Under the pieces are notes generated by a model, which saw nothing but the letters and a program-made list of their open reading frames with translations, was not told the DNA's origin and ran no database searches. Positions 49,509-62,909 of a stretch of DNA of 64,000 nucleotides are shown one piece after another (the first letter of the stretch is position 1; each line of letters begins with the position of its first letter). Source of the DNA: an uncultured Ruegeria sp. (GTDB lineage Bacteria > Pseudomonadota > Alphaproteobacteria > Rhodobacterales > Rhodobacteraceae); NCBI RefSeq assembly GCF_947497005.1, contig NZ_CANMFF010000008.1, positions 62,001-126,000 of the forward strand, in the 5' to 3' direction. Both the position numbers and the translations under genes were made by a program.

Positions 49509-50837
49509 ATGAACCTGATGAAATCTCTCATCCCTGCCGCCGCGATTGTCGCGCTGCCGCAGATGGGTCTTGCGCAAGAGGCCGCTGTAACCGGCGAGAC
49601 CGCGCAGCACACGCAATATATCCTGACCTCGCTGCTGTTTCTGGTCGGCGGTTTTCTGGTGTTCTGGATGGCCGCGGGCTTCGCAATGCTCGAGGCCGGT
49701 CTGGTGCGTTCCAAGAATGTTGCCATGCAACTGGTCAAGAACATGGGCCTGTTTTCCTTTGCCGCCATCATGTACTGGCTGGTGGGCTTTAACCTTATGT
49801 ATCCGGGCGATGGCTGGACCATCACTGGCATTCTGGGCGCGTTCTCGCCAACGTCGCTTGAGCCGGTTGGCCTGGCTGACACCGAAACCGCGCTGGATTA
49901 TGCATCTGTCGGCTCAGACTTCTTTTTCCAGCTGATGTTCTGCGCAACCACCGCATCAATCGTATCCGGCACCATGGCCGAACGTGTCAAACTGTGGCCG
50001 TTCTTCTTCTTCGTGATCGTCCTGACCGGCATCATCTATCCGATCGAAGCGTCCTGGCAGTGGGGTGGTGGCTGGCTGTCCGAGATGGGCTTTAGCGACT
50101 TCGCTGGCTCGACCCTGGTGCACGCCGCAGGTGGTTTCGCAGCGCTGGCCGGTGCCATCGTGCTGGGCCCGCGTATCGGCAAGTATAACAAGGATGGCAA
50201 AGTGATTCCGATCCCCGGCTCGAACCTGGCGCTGGCCACTCTGGGAACGTTCATCCTGTGGCTGGGTTGGTTCGGCTTCAACGGCGGTTCGCAGCTGGCA
50301 ATGGGCACCATCGGTGACATGGCCGATATCAGCCGCATTTTCGCCAACACCAACATGGCCGCTGCTGCTGGTGCTGTTGCAGCGCTGATCCTGACGCAGG
50401 TGATGTATGGCAAGGTAGACCTGACCATGGTGCTGAACGGCGCCCTGGCTGGTCTGGTGTCGATCACCGCTGAACCGCTCGCCCCGTCGCTGTTCCAGGC
50501 CCTGATCATCGGTGCAATTGGTGGTGTTATCGTGGTCCTGACCGTCCCGATGTTGGACCGCATGAAGATTGACGACGTCGTCGGTGCGATCCCAGTTCAC
50601 CTGATCGCAGGCTTCTGGGGTACCTTCATCGTTGCATGGACCAACAGTGACGCTAACTTTGTGACGCAGATCATTGGCTTCGCTGCCATTGGTATCTTCG
50701 TCTTCGCGGTCAGCTTCATCCTCTTCTCGATCCTCAAGGCAACTGTTGGCCTGCGGGTTGGCGAGGAAGAAGAGATCAATGGCCTGGATATGGGTGAGTT
50801 GGGTATGGAAGCCTACCCCGAGTTCTCGAAAGGCTGA
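49509..50837 (+). CDS. amtB: Ammonium transporter AmtB
   Basis: A 442-residue Amt family transporter with a signal-like leader (cleavage near GLAQ, residue 22) and about eleven membrane helices. DFAGSTLVHAAGGFAALAGA holds the first of the twin pore histidines, and NGALAGLVSITAEP is a family motif. It conducts ammonium across the inner membrane and is gated by GlnK. It ends in a very strong terminator. Confidence 0.96.
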   Translation: MNLMKSLIPAAAIVALPQMGLAQEAAVTGETAQHTQYILTSLLFLVGGFLVFWMAAGFAMLEAGLVRSKNVAMQLVKNMGLFSFAAIMYWLVGFNLMYPGDGWTITGILGAFSPTSLEPVGLADTETALDYASVGSDFFFQLMFCATTASIVSGTMAERVKLWPFFFFVIVLTGIIYPIEASWQWGGGWLSEMGFSDFAGSTLVHAAGGFAALAGAIVLGPRIGKYNKDGKVIPIPGSNLALATLGTFILWLGWFGFNGGSQLAMGTIGDMADISRIFANTNMAAAAGAVAALILTQVMYGKVDLTMVLNGALAGLVSITAEPLAPSLFQALIIGAIGGVIVVLTVPMLDRMKIDDVVGAIPVHLIAGFWGTFIVAWTNSDANFVTQIIGFAAIGIFVFAVSFILFSILKATVGLRVGEEEEINGLDMGELGMEAYPEFSKG

Positions 50838-50851
50838 GATCCTTGAATAAC

Positions 50852-50889
50852 AAAAAACGGCCCCAGCCCTGTGCTGGGGCCGTTTTTTT
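50852..50889 (+). terminator. Strong rho-independent terminator after amtB
   Basis: A 16-bp perfect stem (AAAAAACGGCCCCAGC with GCTGGGGCCGTTTTTT) around a CCTGT loop, ending in seven T. This is the clearest intrinsic terminator of the window. Confidence 0.92.
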
Positions 50890-53466: not shown

Positions 53467-53736
53467 TTATCGCGCCCTGCGCAGGCGGAAATGCTGGATA
53501 ATTCCAATAATGCTGATCAGAATCCAGAACCCTTCGATCAACATCGAGGCCAGATTAAAATTCTGCAGCAGGGAATAGACAATCAGCACGGACCCCAGCA
53601 GGTTGATCACCGGAAAGGCCAGATCGTCCGAATTCATCATCCGCATCTGCGTTGCGAAATATGCGGCAACCACGATCAGCGCTCCAAACGAGCCGATGCC
53701 GTCCACGATGGTCAGGCTGTCGATAAATGCGGTCAT
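53467..53736 (-). CDS. CBU_0592 family small membrane protein
   Basis: An 89-residue protein with three hydrophobic helices (about 10-28, 42-60, 62-82) and a basic tail (HFRLRRAR). It resembles the CBU_0592 group of small membrane proteins of unknown role. The start overlaps the cupin regulator stop by 4 nt, so it is co-translated with it. Confidence 0.75.
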   Translation of the reverse strand: MTAFIDSLTIVDGIGSFGALIVVAAYFATQMRMMNSDDLAFPVINLLGSVLIVYSLLQNFNLASMLIEGFWILISIIGIIQHFRLRRAR

Positions 53737-54296
53737 GGATGGGCCTTGCCGTTTTCAAGAAACTCTGTGTGTTGAGCGTAATGATGCATGTTCAGAAAAG
53801 CGGCACCTTGTACCCCGGCGCGATAGCCATGCGAAACATCCGCTGCAAACCGCAAACCCTGCCCAGCCTGCAATAGCACCCATTCTTCACCTCGTAGAAT
53901 TTCCACCGCACCACTGAGGACGAACACTTCCTCGGTCACACCGGCAGCATGCGCTGGGGATTCGTGGCTTTGGTTCGGCGCAAGGTTCACGTGAAAGGTT
54001 TCGGCACCTAGTGCGGGATCGAAGGGGAAGACGATCTTGACCTCGATACTACCTGGGAAAGTCACAGTCTGAAAAACAGAGGGGTCGCCCTGTACTGTGT
54101 CGATCAGAGCACTCAACGGCACCTGAAACCCTTTGGCGATTTTCCAGAGCGTGGCAATCGTCGGGCTGGATTCGCCCCGTTCGATCTGTCCCAGCATGGC
54201 TTTGCTGACGCCCGTCAGTTCGGCCACCTTGGACAGACTCAGCCCAGAGGCCGCCCTGACATCCCTTAGCTTCAGCGTAATGTCGTCTATTGCCAT
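53733..54296 (-). CDS. XRE-cupin transcriptional regulator
   Basis: A 187-residue regulator with an N-terminal helix-turn-helix (about 8-62: LSLSKVAELTGVSKAMLGQI, then ERGESSPTIATLWKIAKG) and a C-terminal cupin domain (about 110-180), a family that senses small molecules. The ATG at 54296 is chosen over the listed start, which lies in the operator. A 16-bp inverted repeat between this gene and ilvD is the probable binding site, so it likely represses itself and may affect ilvD. Confidence 0.87.
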   Translation of the reverse strand: MAIDDITLKLRDVRAASGLSLSKVAELTGVSKAMLGQIERGESSPTIATLWKIAKGFQVPLSALIDTVQGDPSVFQTVTFPGSIEVKIVFPFDPALGAETFHVNLAPNQSHESPAHAAGVTEEVFVLSGAVEILRGEEWVLLQAGQGLRFAADVSHGYRAGVQGAAFLNMHHYAQHTEFLENGKAHP

Positions 54297-54317: not shown

Positions 54318-54362
54318 TTGTGCGTTATAGCGCACATGTGTTACGAGCGCTATAACGCACAA
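54318..54362. promoter_or_regulatory. 16-bp perfect inverted repeat between XRE-cupin gene and ilvD
   Basis: TTGTGCGTTATAGCGC and GCGCTATAACGCACAA are exact inverted copies separated by 13 nt. Each arm contains a near-palindromic core (GCGTTATAGCGC), so this looks like two operator sites about 25 bp apart, centre to centre. It covers most of the 107-nt gap between the divergent genes. Binding by the adjacent regulator is inferred. Confidence 0.7.
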
Positions 54363-54403
54363 ACCCCAAGACATGCAACCCGAGGCAATAGGGAAACAGC
54401 ATC

Positions 54404-56236
54404 ATGCCATTGTACCGATCCAGAACCTCTACTCATGGCCGCAACATGGCCGGTGCCCGTGGATTGTGGCGCGCCACCGGTATGGGCGACGACGATTTCG
54501 GCAAACCGATCATCGCCATCGTCAACTCCTTCACCCAGTTCGTTCCCGGTCACGTGCACCTGAAAGATCTGGGACAGATGGTTGCGCGCGAGGTTGAGGC
54601 CGCTGGTGGTGTTGCGAAAGAGTTCAACACCATCGCGGTGGATGACGGCATCGCCATGGGTCATGACGGAATGCTCTATTCGCTGCCTTCGCGCGAAGTG
54701 ATCGCGGATTCGGTTGAATACATGGTCAACGCGCATTGTGCGGATGCGATGGTCTGCATTTCGAACTGCGACAAGATCACCCCCGGCATGCTGATGGCCG
54801 CCATGCGCCTGAACATCCCGGCGATCTTTGTGTCCGGTGGTCCGATGGAGGCCGGCAAGATCGATATCGCCGATCTGGATGCCAAGAAAATTGACCTTGT
54901 AGACGCAATGGTGGCCGCCGCGGACGACAAGTTCACCGACGAGCAGGTTCAACACATCGAAGAGAATGCCTGCCCGACCTGCGGGTCTTGCTCGGGCATG
55001 TTCACTGCCAACTCGATGAACTGTCTGGCCGAAGCGCTGGGTCTGGCACTGCCGGGCAATGGCTCGACACTGGCAACACATGCCGACCGAAAAGAGCTAT
55101 TCCTGGAGGCGGGTCGCCGCATCGTAGAGATCACCAAACGGCATTACGATCTGGACGAAAAAGGCTTCCTGCCGCGTGAGATCGCAACATTCGACGCGTT
55201 CCAGAACGCCATGAGCCTGGACATCGCCATGGGCGGGTCGACCAACACGGTGCTTCATTTGCTGGCCATCGCGCATGAGGGCGAAGTGGATTTCACCATG
55301 TCCGACATGGATCACCTGAGCCGTCGCGTGCCTTGCCTGTGTAAAGTCGCGCCCAACACCGAGAACGTCCACATGGAGGATGTCCACCGCGCCGGCGGCA
55401 TCTTCTCGATCCTTGGCGAGCTCAGCCGCGCAGGCCTGCTACACGAAGATTGCCACACGGTGCATTCGGCCACCATGGGCGAGGCGATTGCCAATTGGGA
55501 CATCAAGATCGCCAACAATCCCAAGGCACAAGAGTTGTTCAAGGCCGCCCCCGGTGGTGTGCGCACCACTCAGGCATTCAGCCAATCGAACCGATTCAAA
55601 GAACTGGATACCGATCGCGAAGGCGGCGTGATCCGCGCGAAAGAACACGCGTTCAGCCAGGATGGTGGCCTGGCGGTTCTGTTCGGCAACATCGCCCGAG
55701 ACGGCTGTATTGTGAAAACTGCCGGTGTGGATGCCAATATCCTGCAATTCACCGGCTCGGCTTACGTGTGCGAAAGCCAGGATCAGGCAGTCAGCGACAT
55801 TCTCACCGGCAAGGTGAAAGAGGGTGACGTGGTGGTGATCCGCTATGAAGGCCCGCGTGGCGGTCCGGGGATGCAGGAAATGCTGTATCCGACGTCTTAC
55901 CTGAAGTCCAAAGGGCTTGGCAAAGCCTGCGCTTTGCTGACCGATGGTCGTTTTTCGGGCGGCACATCCGGTCTGTCGATCGGTCACGTATCACCCGAGG
56001 CCGCCGAAGGTGGTGAGATTGGTCTGGTACAGAATGGCGACGTGATCGAGATCGACATCCCGAACCGCACTATCCATCTGGCCGTCTCAGATGAAGAGCT
56101 TGCCGCCCGACGCGAAGCACAAGACGCAAAAGGATGGGAGCCTGCCGCGCCGCGCAAACGCAAGGTGTCTACCGCGCTCAAAGCCTATGCCAAGTTGACG
56201 ACCAGCGCGGCAAAAGGGGCTGTACGCCAAGTCTGA
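54404..56236 (+). CDS. ilvD: Dihydroxy-acid dehydratase IlvD
   Basis: A 610-residue IlvD/Edd family dehydratase. [14 protein letters not shown] and [18 protein letters not shown] hold the cluster cysteines, and the later [19 protein letters not shown] is conserved. It makes the 2-oxoacids that precede valine, isoleucine and leucine. It completes the branched-chain theme of leuCD and leuB in this region. It is divergent from a cupin-domain regulator that may control it. Confidence 0.97.
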
Positions 56237-58980: not shown

Positions 58981-59309
58981 CCCACAAAACCATCCGACGA
59001 TTGGCGGCCTGCGGGCCCCCGCAGCCGTGCATTCCTTGCCTCGAAACGGCGTATGATCTGTTGCGGCGGGCAGGGTCCTGAGCGCCTGCAACTGCATTCG
59101 TGATTTTTGTTCAAAAATCGGATACTGTGCAGTCAATTGGGCCATTTTGTTCATTTTTTTCGATCAGTAATGCGGCCCTGGCCAGTGAAAAACACGAAAA
59201 ACAGGCAGGTCTTGTTTTCCGAATGACAGGTATCTGAGCGTCGAAGGATCCAAAAACACTGGCTGGAATAAGGTTGAATTTTGAAACGCAACTCCGGGGG
59301 GACACAGTT
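58981..59309. other. Upstream region of the multidomain fusion gene
   Basis: 329 nt without a gene. It holds a hairpin CTGCGG-GCCC-CCGCAG at 59009-59024 (probable terminator for the GT14 gene) and an AT-rich perfect stem GATTTTTG-TT-CAAAAATC at 59102-59119 that could be an operator or part of the fusion gene promoter. AT content rises clearly from 59100 to 59170. Confidence 0.5.
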
Positions 59310-62300
59310 GTGCCTATAGATCAAATTGCCAAATCCAGACCATACATCCCAAATGACACAGACTGGAAGTTGATATACAACGTCCTGCCGGGCGAAACTC
59401 AGGTTGCGGACCCGGCCGTCATCAATCCTCAGTTCGAATGCATCGAGGTGACCGGGAACGCGGTCCTGCCGGCGAAAGGCATGTATGTCGTGCTGCGAGG
59501 CGTGGTTCAGTTGCGCCAAGATGGGAAACCGTTGGCCAGCGCGGATGTTGGTGACTATTTCTATGAAGAACATCTGCAGATCACGGATATTCCCGTCAGC
59601 CTCGAAGCGCTTGCGTTGGACGGAACGCGTTTGGCCTTTCTGTCCAGTGAGGAATGGAAACAGATACCTGCAGATATCCGGAAACCCTGCTTTGGACGGA
59701 TGTTCGGCGATCTCCTCAGCGTCCAGATCCAGAACTTTCAGCAGCCGATCAATTGCTGCAGTGTAACCGCCGCAGCGCTCAGTATGTCGGCATTGGGTTT
59801 CAGCTGCGAGGTGAATGACATCTTCCGCGAATGTGCCCTGCCTTCATCCTTTGTGGTGAATGACGGCATTTCACTGGGAGAACTGTTTGATGTCGCCTGC
59901 ACCTACATTCACTCGCAGGGCCTGCGGGAAAGAGTGCAGGTTCAGGCCTATTTCATGGACGGGGACACGACTGACGTACCGCTGTTGCTGGAGGCCATCG
60001 ACGAATCCAATCAGTTGGGCGGCGACAATGATATTCTGGTGGCGAATTTCCAGGTCGGAGTCGCCCATGGTAAAGAGAACATGCCGGGGGGGCATTTTGC
60101 CGTTATTGCCAAATGCAACGCAAGCACCGGGCTTGTGCACATGATGGATGTGCATCCTGAGAAATACGGCAAGCTGTGGGTCACAACGATCCAACGGCTT
60201 TGGGAAGCGATGTCAGACAGGGACGGGACCTCGATGCGGTCCAGAGGCATTCTGCGCTTTTCGGCGCGTGCAGCGGTCAAAAGCCATCTGAAAACCTTCA
60301 AACAAAGATGCAACTATATCGACAGCACACGGTATCTGGCGAAAGATCCCAAGAAACGGCGCAACCTGTTCCGCCGCGCCACCCCAAATCTGAACTCTCT
60401 GGGTGTTTTGGTGGAAAGCCTCGCCATACATGGCGACCATCAAGTGGACGAAGACAAGCTGCTGCAGGCAACCGAATCGTCCTTTACTGATGCCGTCAGC
60501 CGGGTTGCGACTGCAAAAGATATGCACGAGATGGCAAAAAAATACCTGAGCCAGTCCGAAGACGTGCATGTGGACAGTTCGTTTCATAGCTTCGAGACCC
60601 GTGACGACAAGTCAATTCAAACCCCCGAAGACTGGTTCAAGGCTCAGTTGAAAAGCCTGAAGGTCAACAAGGATCGTCACCTGATGATCAACATCGATTT
60701 CAATCGCGTAACCGGGATAAACGCGATCGAACCGCCGAAAAATGTGTACCGTGAAACCGCGCTGCTGGAAGAGTTCTGGTGTCTGTGCATCGATTACGAC
60801 GAAGACGAAGACGTTGTGACCATTGTCGACATGAGCCCTGCAACTTCACAAGTCTGGCAGGCGCCTCGCGGCAATATTTTCCGTGGTCTGCGCGATCTCG
60901 AAGACCCGGCACTTGTGTTAATCGAAGAGGTTGAGCCGCCCGAAGACCCTGGTGATGTCGACAGTATCATCAAGAACAACCCGATGGTCCTGTTTTACGA
61001 GGATGAAGATCCCTGGTCCTACATGCTCAGAAGTATCCTTTCGAACATCGGCGCAACGAGCGTCAAACAAGTGGATGTGGGTGGGCGTGATCCGAATGCC
61101 ATAAAGATGCGGCGGCAATTGGTATCGCTTGGTCACAAGCCCAAGGTTCCATACCTGTTTTTCAAAGGCAAATGCATCAGCAAAAGCGAGAAGCTGCAAG
61201 ATATCGTGGATATGATCAAGTCAGGTCACCTGCAAGACCGTATGCGCGGCGCAGGGCTTCCCGTTTCAAAACTGGATGATACACCCAGTCTGAACAAGAA
61301 TATGTTTGGCTATCCCAAGGGGGTGCTGAACGAGGTCAGTGCCGGCAAGCGCAATGTGTTGTTATGCGCCTGTGGATCCTCGGCCGCGGACAAGATCCCT
61401 GAACTTGTCGAACGCATCGTCGATGCGGGGCACAACGTCAAGTTGATCCCTTCGGTATCTGCCGAAAAGTTCTTTCGGGATTTTGGCGCTGAACGAATCG
61501 ACGCCAAGATCACCCACAACGACTATTACCGCGACGACGATGAGTGGAACTTCCGATACATGGAGTTCGACATGCCGGTGCGCGCCTCGCATCTTGCCCT
61601 TTGTGACTGGGCCGATTGCGTGATCGTGGCACCCATTACCTGCAACACGATGGGCAAGGTGGCGAACGGGATCGCCGACAATCTTCTAACCTCGGTCTTC
61701 GTGGCTTGGCAGTACCAGAAGAAACCAGTGATCCTTTGCCCCGCGTGCAACACGAATATGTGGAACAACATCACGACCCAGAACAACGTCTCAAAACTGA
61801 AAATGCTGGGCGCGGATCTCATTGGACCCCGGGAAGGACGCCTGTCCAACGGCCGGATGGGTATCGGTATGATGGCCACTCCGGACCAGATCATGGAAGC
61901 ACTGGGCGAAGCTTTCGAGGAGCTGGACGACCAGAAGTACCGCGTTTGCAAATGGGCGCGAGAGGCTGCCGCTGCCGATGATATCAATGAATGGAAACGC
62001 GTGTTCCGCGTTATTGATGAAGGTATCGTCGGCGTCAATATTGTGGACGAAACCCACGGGGATTCATTGCTGCATTATGCAGCAGGTGGTGAGGGTGAGT
62101 TGAATGAAGGCGGTCATGATCTGGGCAAGCCCGACTATGAAGCCGCTCAAGATCTGATTGACAGGGAAATTGACGTCAACATTGTCAATGATCACGGGTT
62201 TACGGCGCTGCATGTTGCGGTGATGAACAAAGCCCCGAAGATGGTCGAAATCCTGTTGGCGGCAGAGGGCATGGATGCGACCTCGTGCATCGAGTTTGTT

Positions 62301-62909
62301 CAAGGCGCGGATATCTCACCCGAGATCCGGGCCATGCTGGATGTTTGGGCACGGGATCACAATCTGAAAATGGCAGATGCCGAACAGGGGCGCGATGAAA
62401 GTTTTGTGACCGTGAACGAACCTTCTTACCTGTACTTCACATACGGGTCACTAAAGCAGGGGTTCCCCAATCATGACGCGCACAACACAGTTCTGAACGA
62501 CTTCGTGGGGACGGCCCGCACGCGGCAGCCAATGCCTCTGATCGTTCCGAAAGAGCCCTTCTGCGACAATCCGAACTGCAAGTTTCTGCATCGGATGGCA
62601 ACGCTTGTCGATCAACAGGGCATGGGCAAACAGGTAAGCGGTGAGGTCTACCGGGTCACGGAATCCGGCTTGCATGAACTGGACAGACTGGAAGGCTATC
62701 ATGGCCCCGGTTCACCCGAGAACGTCTATATCCGCAAGAAGATCAATGTGGTCGTGGATGGCGTGATGAAGCCAGCTTATGCCTATGTGATCGCTGACCC
62801 CGCGAAGTATCTGCAGGGATTACGCGATGGAACTTCTGAAATGGTGAACGACTACACACTCGATATGGCGCAGGGCGAACTCAAACCGGGTTTCAAATCC
62901 GAAGATTAG
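59310..62909 (+). CDS. Multidomain fusion: CNMP-like / phytochelatin synthase / Grx-like / HFCD flavoprotein / ankyrin / GGCT
   Basis: Numbering follows the 1211-residue ORF from TTG 59274; I prefer GTG 59310 (1199 residues), after GGGGGGAC. Domains: cyclic-nucleotide-binding-like, 45-135; phytochelatin synthase, 150-335, with Cys162 (NCCS), His274 (GGHF) and Asp292; a degenerate second copy, about 440-545, with Phe501 in place of His; glutaredoxin-like, 568-660, without its CPYC; an HFCD flavoprotein domain like phosphopantothenoylcysteine decarboxylase, 693-880, with His773, Asn826 (PACNTNMW) and a clamp RLSNGRMGIGMM where the reducing Cys is Asn859; ankyrin-like, 928-1000; gamma-glutamylcyclotransferase, 1051-1180, with YGSL and Glu1140. 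All catalytic parts act on glutathione-type or cysteinyl substrates. Cytosolic, with no signal peptide. The stop overlaps that of the convergent channel gene by 4 nt. The joint pathway is inference. Confidence 0.85.
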   Translation: MPIDQIAKSRPYIPNDTDWKLIYNVLPGETQVADPAVINPQFECIEVTGNAVLPAKGMYVVLRGVVQLRQDGKPLASADVGDYFYEEHLQITDIPVSLEALALDGTRLAFLSSEEWKQIPADIRKPCFGRMFGDLLSVQIQNFQQPINCCSVTAAALSMSALGFSCEVNDIFRECALPSSFVVNDGISLGELFDVACTYIHSQGLRERVQVQAYFMDGDTTDVPLLLEAIDESNQLGGDNDILVANFQVGVAHGKENMPGGHFAVIAKCNASTGLVHMMDVHPEKYGKLWVTTIQRLWEAMSDRDGTSMRSRGILRFSARAAVKSHLKTFKQRCNYIDSTRYLAKDPKKRRNLFRRATPNLNSLGVLVESLAIHGDHQVDEDKLLQATESSFTDAVSRVATAKDMHEMAKKYLSQSEDVHVDSSFHSFETRDDKSIQTPEDWFKAQLKSLKVNKDRHLMINIDFNRVTGINAIEPPKNVYRETALLEEFWCLCIDYDEDEDVVTIVDMSPATSQVWQAPRGNIFRGLRDLEDPALVLIEEVEPPEDPGDVDSIIKNNPMVLFYEDEDPWSYMLRSILSNIGATSVKQVDVGGRDPNAIKMRRQLVSLGHKPKVPYLFFKGKCISKSEKLQDIVDMIKSGHLQDRMRGAGLPVSKLDDTPSLNKNMFGYPKGVLNEVSAGKRNVLLCACGSSAADKIPELVERIVDAGHNVKLIPSVSAEKFFRDFGAERIDAKITHNDYYRDDDEWNFRYMEFDMPVRASHLALCDWADCVIVAPITCNTMGKVANGIADNLLTSVFVAWQYQKKPVILCPACNTNMWNNITTQNNVSKLKMLGADLIGPREGRLSNGRMGIGMMATPDQIMEALGEAFEELDDQKYRVCKWAREAAAADDINEWKRVFRVIDEGIVGVNIVDETHGDSLLHYAAGGEGELNEGGHDLGKPDYEAAQDLIDREIDVNIVNDHGFTALHVAVMNKAPKMVEILLAAEGMDATSCIEFVQGADISPEIRAMLDVWARDHNLKMADAEQGRDESFVTVNEPSYLYFTYGSLKQGFPNHDAHNTVLNDFVGTARTRQPMPLIVPKEPFCDNPNCKFLHRMATLVDQQGMGKQVSGEVYRVTESGLHELDRLEGYHGPGSPENVYIRKKINVVVDGVMKPAYAYVIADPAKYLQGLRDGTSEMVNDYTLDMAQGELKPGFKSED

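Follow-up and report, generated by a model that had tools for sequence, protein, structure and literature searches.

Deletion of a permease gene, benE, probably joined a SutR-type operator-promoter to ilvD in the ancestry of Ruegeria, and an adjoining XRE-cupin regulator now likely represses both ilvD and its own gene. We hold this reading with reasonable though not full confidence, from a comparison of related genomes with a 64,000-nucleotide stretch of DNA from an uncultured Ruegeria sp. (the window). The features of the window that bear on it are:

53467..53736, minus strand: CBU_0592-family small membrane protein, 89 aa, its start overlapping the regulator stop (ATGA)
53733..54296, minus strand: SutR/YdcN-type XRE-cupin regulator, 187 aa, ATG at 54296
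54318..54362: exact 16-bp inverted repeat (arms 54318-54333 and 54347-54362), made up by both boxes
54319..54336: regulator-side putative operator box TGTGCGTTATAGCGCACA, with TATAAC toward the regulator at 54329-54324
54344..54361: ilvD-side putative operator box CGAGCGCTATAACGCACA, with TATAAC toward ilvD at 54351-54356
54390..54396, plus strand: likely ilvD ribosome-binding site AGGGAAA, assigned by sequence and kept in relatives
54404..56236, plus strand: ilvD, dihydroxy-acid dehydratase, 610 aa (NCBIfam NF009103 equivalog)

The repeat sits between the regulator start at 54296 (minus strand) and the ilvD start at 54404. As reported in the first-pass annotation, its 16-nt arms are exact (100% complementary, with a gap of 13 nt), and the accompanying judgement that it is far beyond chance also held, since simple arithmetic gives ~7e-4 such perfect repeats expected in 64 kb. 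The near-palindromic core that had been seen in each arm, GCGYTATARCGC, belongs to a longer unit: both boxes are 18-bp near-palindromes, with centres 25 bp apart, and the sequence at 54344-54361 is a copy of TGTGCGTTATAGCGCACA with 2 mismatches. Because many relatives differ in the outer letters of the arms while both boxes stay, the conserved unit is the box rather than the arm pairing. On this comparison, the repeat is best read as two near-palindromic boxes, the exact identity of the arms being incidental. The core occurs at just these two places in the whole 5.27-Mb genome. A genome-wide search with the 18-mer box, allowing up to 3 mismatches, found no further site, and a wide regulon of close-match sites was rejected.

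We considered whether the repeat instead acts in a leader RNA, as the hairpin of an attenuator or a terminator. Its predicted RNA fold is strong (-26.4 kcal/mol, z -6.5), but no terminator-like site was found at the repeat, the arms are individually palindromic, and arm pairing is broken in relatives that keep both boxes, at variable spacing. The locus thus does not show the attenuator/terminator pattern of a stem with a U-run behind it and conserved pairing, and we regard this explanation as very improbable.

Counting perfect 16-bp inverted repeats with arms at most 100 bp apart, the window holds two, including the one at 54318-54362. The other, AAAAAACGGCCCCAGC... at 50852-50888, looks like an intrinsic terminator; an ammonium transporter gene ends just before it, at 50837. 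Elsewhere in the window, a 1211-aa ORF (59274-62909) has, by eye, an unusual domain combination, with phytochelatin-synthase-like and flavoprotein/decarboxylase-like parts, ankyrin-like repeats and a gamma-glutamylcyclotransferase-like end.

The regulator has an N-terminal Cro/C1-type HTH and a C-terminal cupin (HTH_3, PF01381, and Cupin_2, PF07883, both over cut-off) and is 45% identical to E. coli SutR (YdcN) in a full-length match over 172 aa. In E. coli, sutR and ydcO diverge from a 91-bp intergenic region that contains twin boxes, CGTGCGTTATAGCGTACA and TGTCCGTTATAACGCACA, with 1 and 2 mismatches (chance expectation 0.02). The window regulator thus has both the domain layout and the upstream twin GCGYTATARCGC boxes of a SutR/YdcN-type protein. 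The two loci differ in box spacing, which is 25 in Ruegeria and 32 in E. coli, and in their neighbours: the Ruegeria locus has no partner permease, and ilvD stands at the far side of the operator in place of a divergent BenE/YdcO gene. As the window locus is not a SutR-YdcO pair, its regulator is called SutR-type for its sequence and its operator only. For YdcN itself, ChIP-exo revealed a palindromic motif (PMC8464067). Since the same twin boxes accompany regulator homologues from Ruegeria to E. coli, the earlier proposal that the repeat is an operator for the XRE-cupin regulator is well supported, and the boxes can be taken as the putative operator pair of the adjoining gene, to which its product would bind.

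The first-pass annotation had also suggested searching related genomes for the motif in front of the same gene. All Ruegeria-type loci have two boxes between regulator and ilvD, and boxes were likewise found at SutR-like loci beyond. Family and phylum samples were drawn evenly, with one genome per species, and counts over related genomes are not counts of independent events. Outside the family, 21 of 21 SutR-like loci (L109-L128 and L130, from a 399-genome phylum sample) have a divergent BenE/YdcO gene and two boxes, each with at most 2 mismatches. Within the family, 13 loci of other genera (L087, L088, L096-L106) have a BenE-family permease divergent from the regulator, across the operator; the outgroup permease is 46% identical to E. 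coli YdcO. In L087, L088, L096 and L098, the loci for which enough sequence was read and a match obtained, ilvD comes next beyond benE. Distant paralogues (L129, L131-L133), 30-33% identical to SutR, have neither boxes nor BenE. One of these, L133 (G000:C8:34080-34595), is a second XRE-cupin paralogue in the genome of the window, 36% identical and without boxes or a BenE neighbour; L133-like genes occur throughout the genus.

In 55 loci from Ruegeria and close kin, the permease is gone and ilvD abuts the operator. These ilvD-adjacent loci lie on one side of a branch of the regulator tree (SH-aLRT 100), corresponding to one change. As E. coli and the other outgroups have benE/ydcO at this place, benE is the ancestral neighbour. 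From these neighbourhoods, ilvD would be a secondary target, and the ancestral partner is a BenE/YdcO permease lost in the Ruegeria lineage. We rejected the possibility that the lost benE moved elsewhere in the genome. The sole BenE homologue, away from the locus, is 35-40% identical; its identity to the outgroup partner is just 40% and it carries no box, which marks it as a different paralogue. In genome G261, CGCAACCCTACC beside the box appears to be left over from the permease leader.

Among relatives, conservation is concentrated in the operator region, with information content of 1.84 bits in the boxes, 1.78 in the spacer, and 0.98 and 1.12 in the flanks (48 distinct sequences). The regulator is also well kept: an orthologue is present in 36 of 37 genus genomes (78-100% identity), and dN/dS is about 0.03-0.09, with synonymous sites near saturation and strong purifying selection in both domains. 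Together, conservation of the boxes and spacer and purifying selection on the regulator indicate that the system has stayed in use after loss of the permease. The CBU_0592-family gene occupies the same position in most Ruegeria loci and probably shares one transcript with the regulator, judging from their overlap. In outgroups L087, L088 and L096-L101, an EamA-type permease gene lies downstream of the regulator; most Ruegeria have the CBU_0592-family gene in its place, and both flanks of the regulator have thus been remodelled.

Spacing between the boxes bears on how they work. Box centres are 25 bp apart in 49 loci, 26 in 12, 27-28 in four, 16 in two and 31-39 in 22, with no common helical phase. 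A paired-box search of 397 family genomes at a fixed spacing of 25 bp matched only the genus because other genera space the boxes differently. The first-pass annotation had proposed cooperative binding of two dimers and, should the regulator also repress ilvD, a tie between valine/isoleucine synthesis and the small molecule sensed by the cupin. The exact 16-bp repeat and the constancy of the 25-bp spacing in 49 loci favour this proposal. However, the spacings of the other relatives share no helical phase, arm identity is lost among relatives, and the boxes are older than their link to ilvD. As a fixed cooperative unit the proposal did not stand, and we consider it quite unlikely. Given spacings of 16-39 bp, two separate operators, one for each promoter, fit better than a rigid unit.

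In 48 of 49 loci TATAAC points toward ilvD, and in 48 of 49 toward the regulator, which would suit boxes that also serve as -10 elements; this orientation fails in some distant relatives. A consensus scan returned no sigma-70 promoter, and no -35 hexamer matches TATAAC. Since an ordinary promoter must precede the ribosome-binding site at 54390, geometry would put the -35 element no further downstream than 54347-54358, within the box or ahead of it. In most species of the Ruegeria clade, the start of the ilvD-side box lies at -54 to -58 relative to the ilvD ATG, so that a usual ilvD promoter would have to overlap the box.

An upstream element of ilvD lay at this position in the ancestral arrangement. 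ilvD matches NF009103 at 1159.6 bits (cut-off 710) and is present in a single genome copy at E<=1e-100. In outgroups, an element, TTGCNTTTNTTGCGCAAAT (also given as TTGCNTTTRTTGCGCAAAT), lies at -53 to -57 relative to ilvD and keeps 16-17 of 17 letters in seven loci (L134, L135, L137, L138, L087, L088 and L098), where it is perhaps the gene's own promoter or a regulator site. It was absent across the Ruegeria clade loci compared. A search of 249 family genomes gave mostly scattered one-mismatch matches, so the element is not family-wide for ilvD, and its presence holds for the outgroups examined. G017, the sole genus genome without an orthologous regulator, carries a weaker version of this element at its ilvD, which has no box. 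Promoter geometry and loss of the ancestral upstream element together make control of ilvD by the regulator probable. The simplest account of these sequences is that one deletion took out both benE and the ilvD upstream region. Searching published work on Ruegeria and ilvD, we found nothing relevant.

A competing explanation is autoregulation only, in which both boxes act on the regulator gene and on that of the membrane protein coupled to it, while the neighbouring ilvD uses another promoter. Such regulation occurs among XRE-cupin regulators (PMC7901475), and roughly 130-155 bp separate ilvD from the boxes in R. pomeroyi (L085) and G261 (L095/L136), two cases in which the gene may have its own promoter. 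Most of the clade, however, leaves no space outside the box where a promoter of ilvD could lie, the old upstream element of ilvD is gone, and the ilvD-side box is conserved as much as the regulator-side box. Autoregulation only is possible, but the balance of this evidence makes it doubtful.

A model that joins these observations begins with a SutR/YdcN-type XRE-cupin regulator that most likely acts as a repressor and has the two boxes as its operator. In the ancestral state, the boxes would have lain between the regulator and a divergent BenE/YdcO-family gene, one near each promoter, giving autoregulation and permease expression under ligand control. A deletion in the common ancestor of Ruegeria and its close kin would then have removed benE together with the sequence upstream of ilvD, joining the permease operator-promoter to ilvD. 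Until its cupin binds a small molecule, the regulator would now probably repress ilvD, its own gene and that of the coupled small membrane protein.

As E. coli SutR, for which a sulfur-related regulon has been reported, is annotated as a dual regulator, the sign of control could be repression or activation. By analogy, we infer repression relieved by a small-molecule ligand. XRE-cupin regulators typically act locally, repressing neighbouring genes, and binding of a ligand to the cupin usually lifts the repression (PMC7901475). The Pseudomonas local repressors ErfA, PsdR and PauR (PMC7901475) resemble the Ruegeria regulator in domain layout, palindromic operators and local targets, a likeness drawn without comparing operator sequences, and differ from it in which genes they target. 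As to the ligand, the V. cholerae XRE-cupin regulator PDB 1Y9Q, which matches the Ruegeria protein over its full length (E 8.9e-38), has D-methionine in its cupin (PMC7901475); this sole clue is a lead only.

Gene loss appears to have given rise here to a new version of the SutR-YdcO system. We lean slightly toward the fuller statement that deletion of the permease gene, along with the upstream region that ilvD once had, rewired a SutR-type permease regulator onto the only ilvD, such that the synthesis of branched-chain amino acids responds to whatever the cupin binds, possibly a sulfur amino acid, methionine for example. The comparison extends the E. coli SutR operator and regulator to alphaproteobacteria and indicates BenE/YdcO permeases as the ancestral target. 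Since outgroups preserve the state before the change, the effect on ilvD is directly testable. The locus would be a clear example of gene loss rewiring regulation: a core biosynthetic gene apparently took over a promoter and operator that had belonged to a transporter gene, since deleted, and this arrangement was then kept genus-wide.
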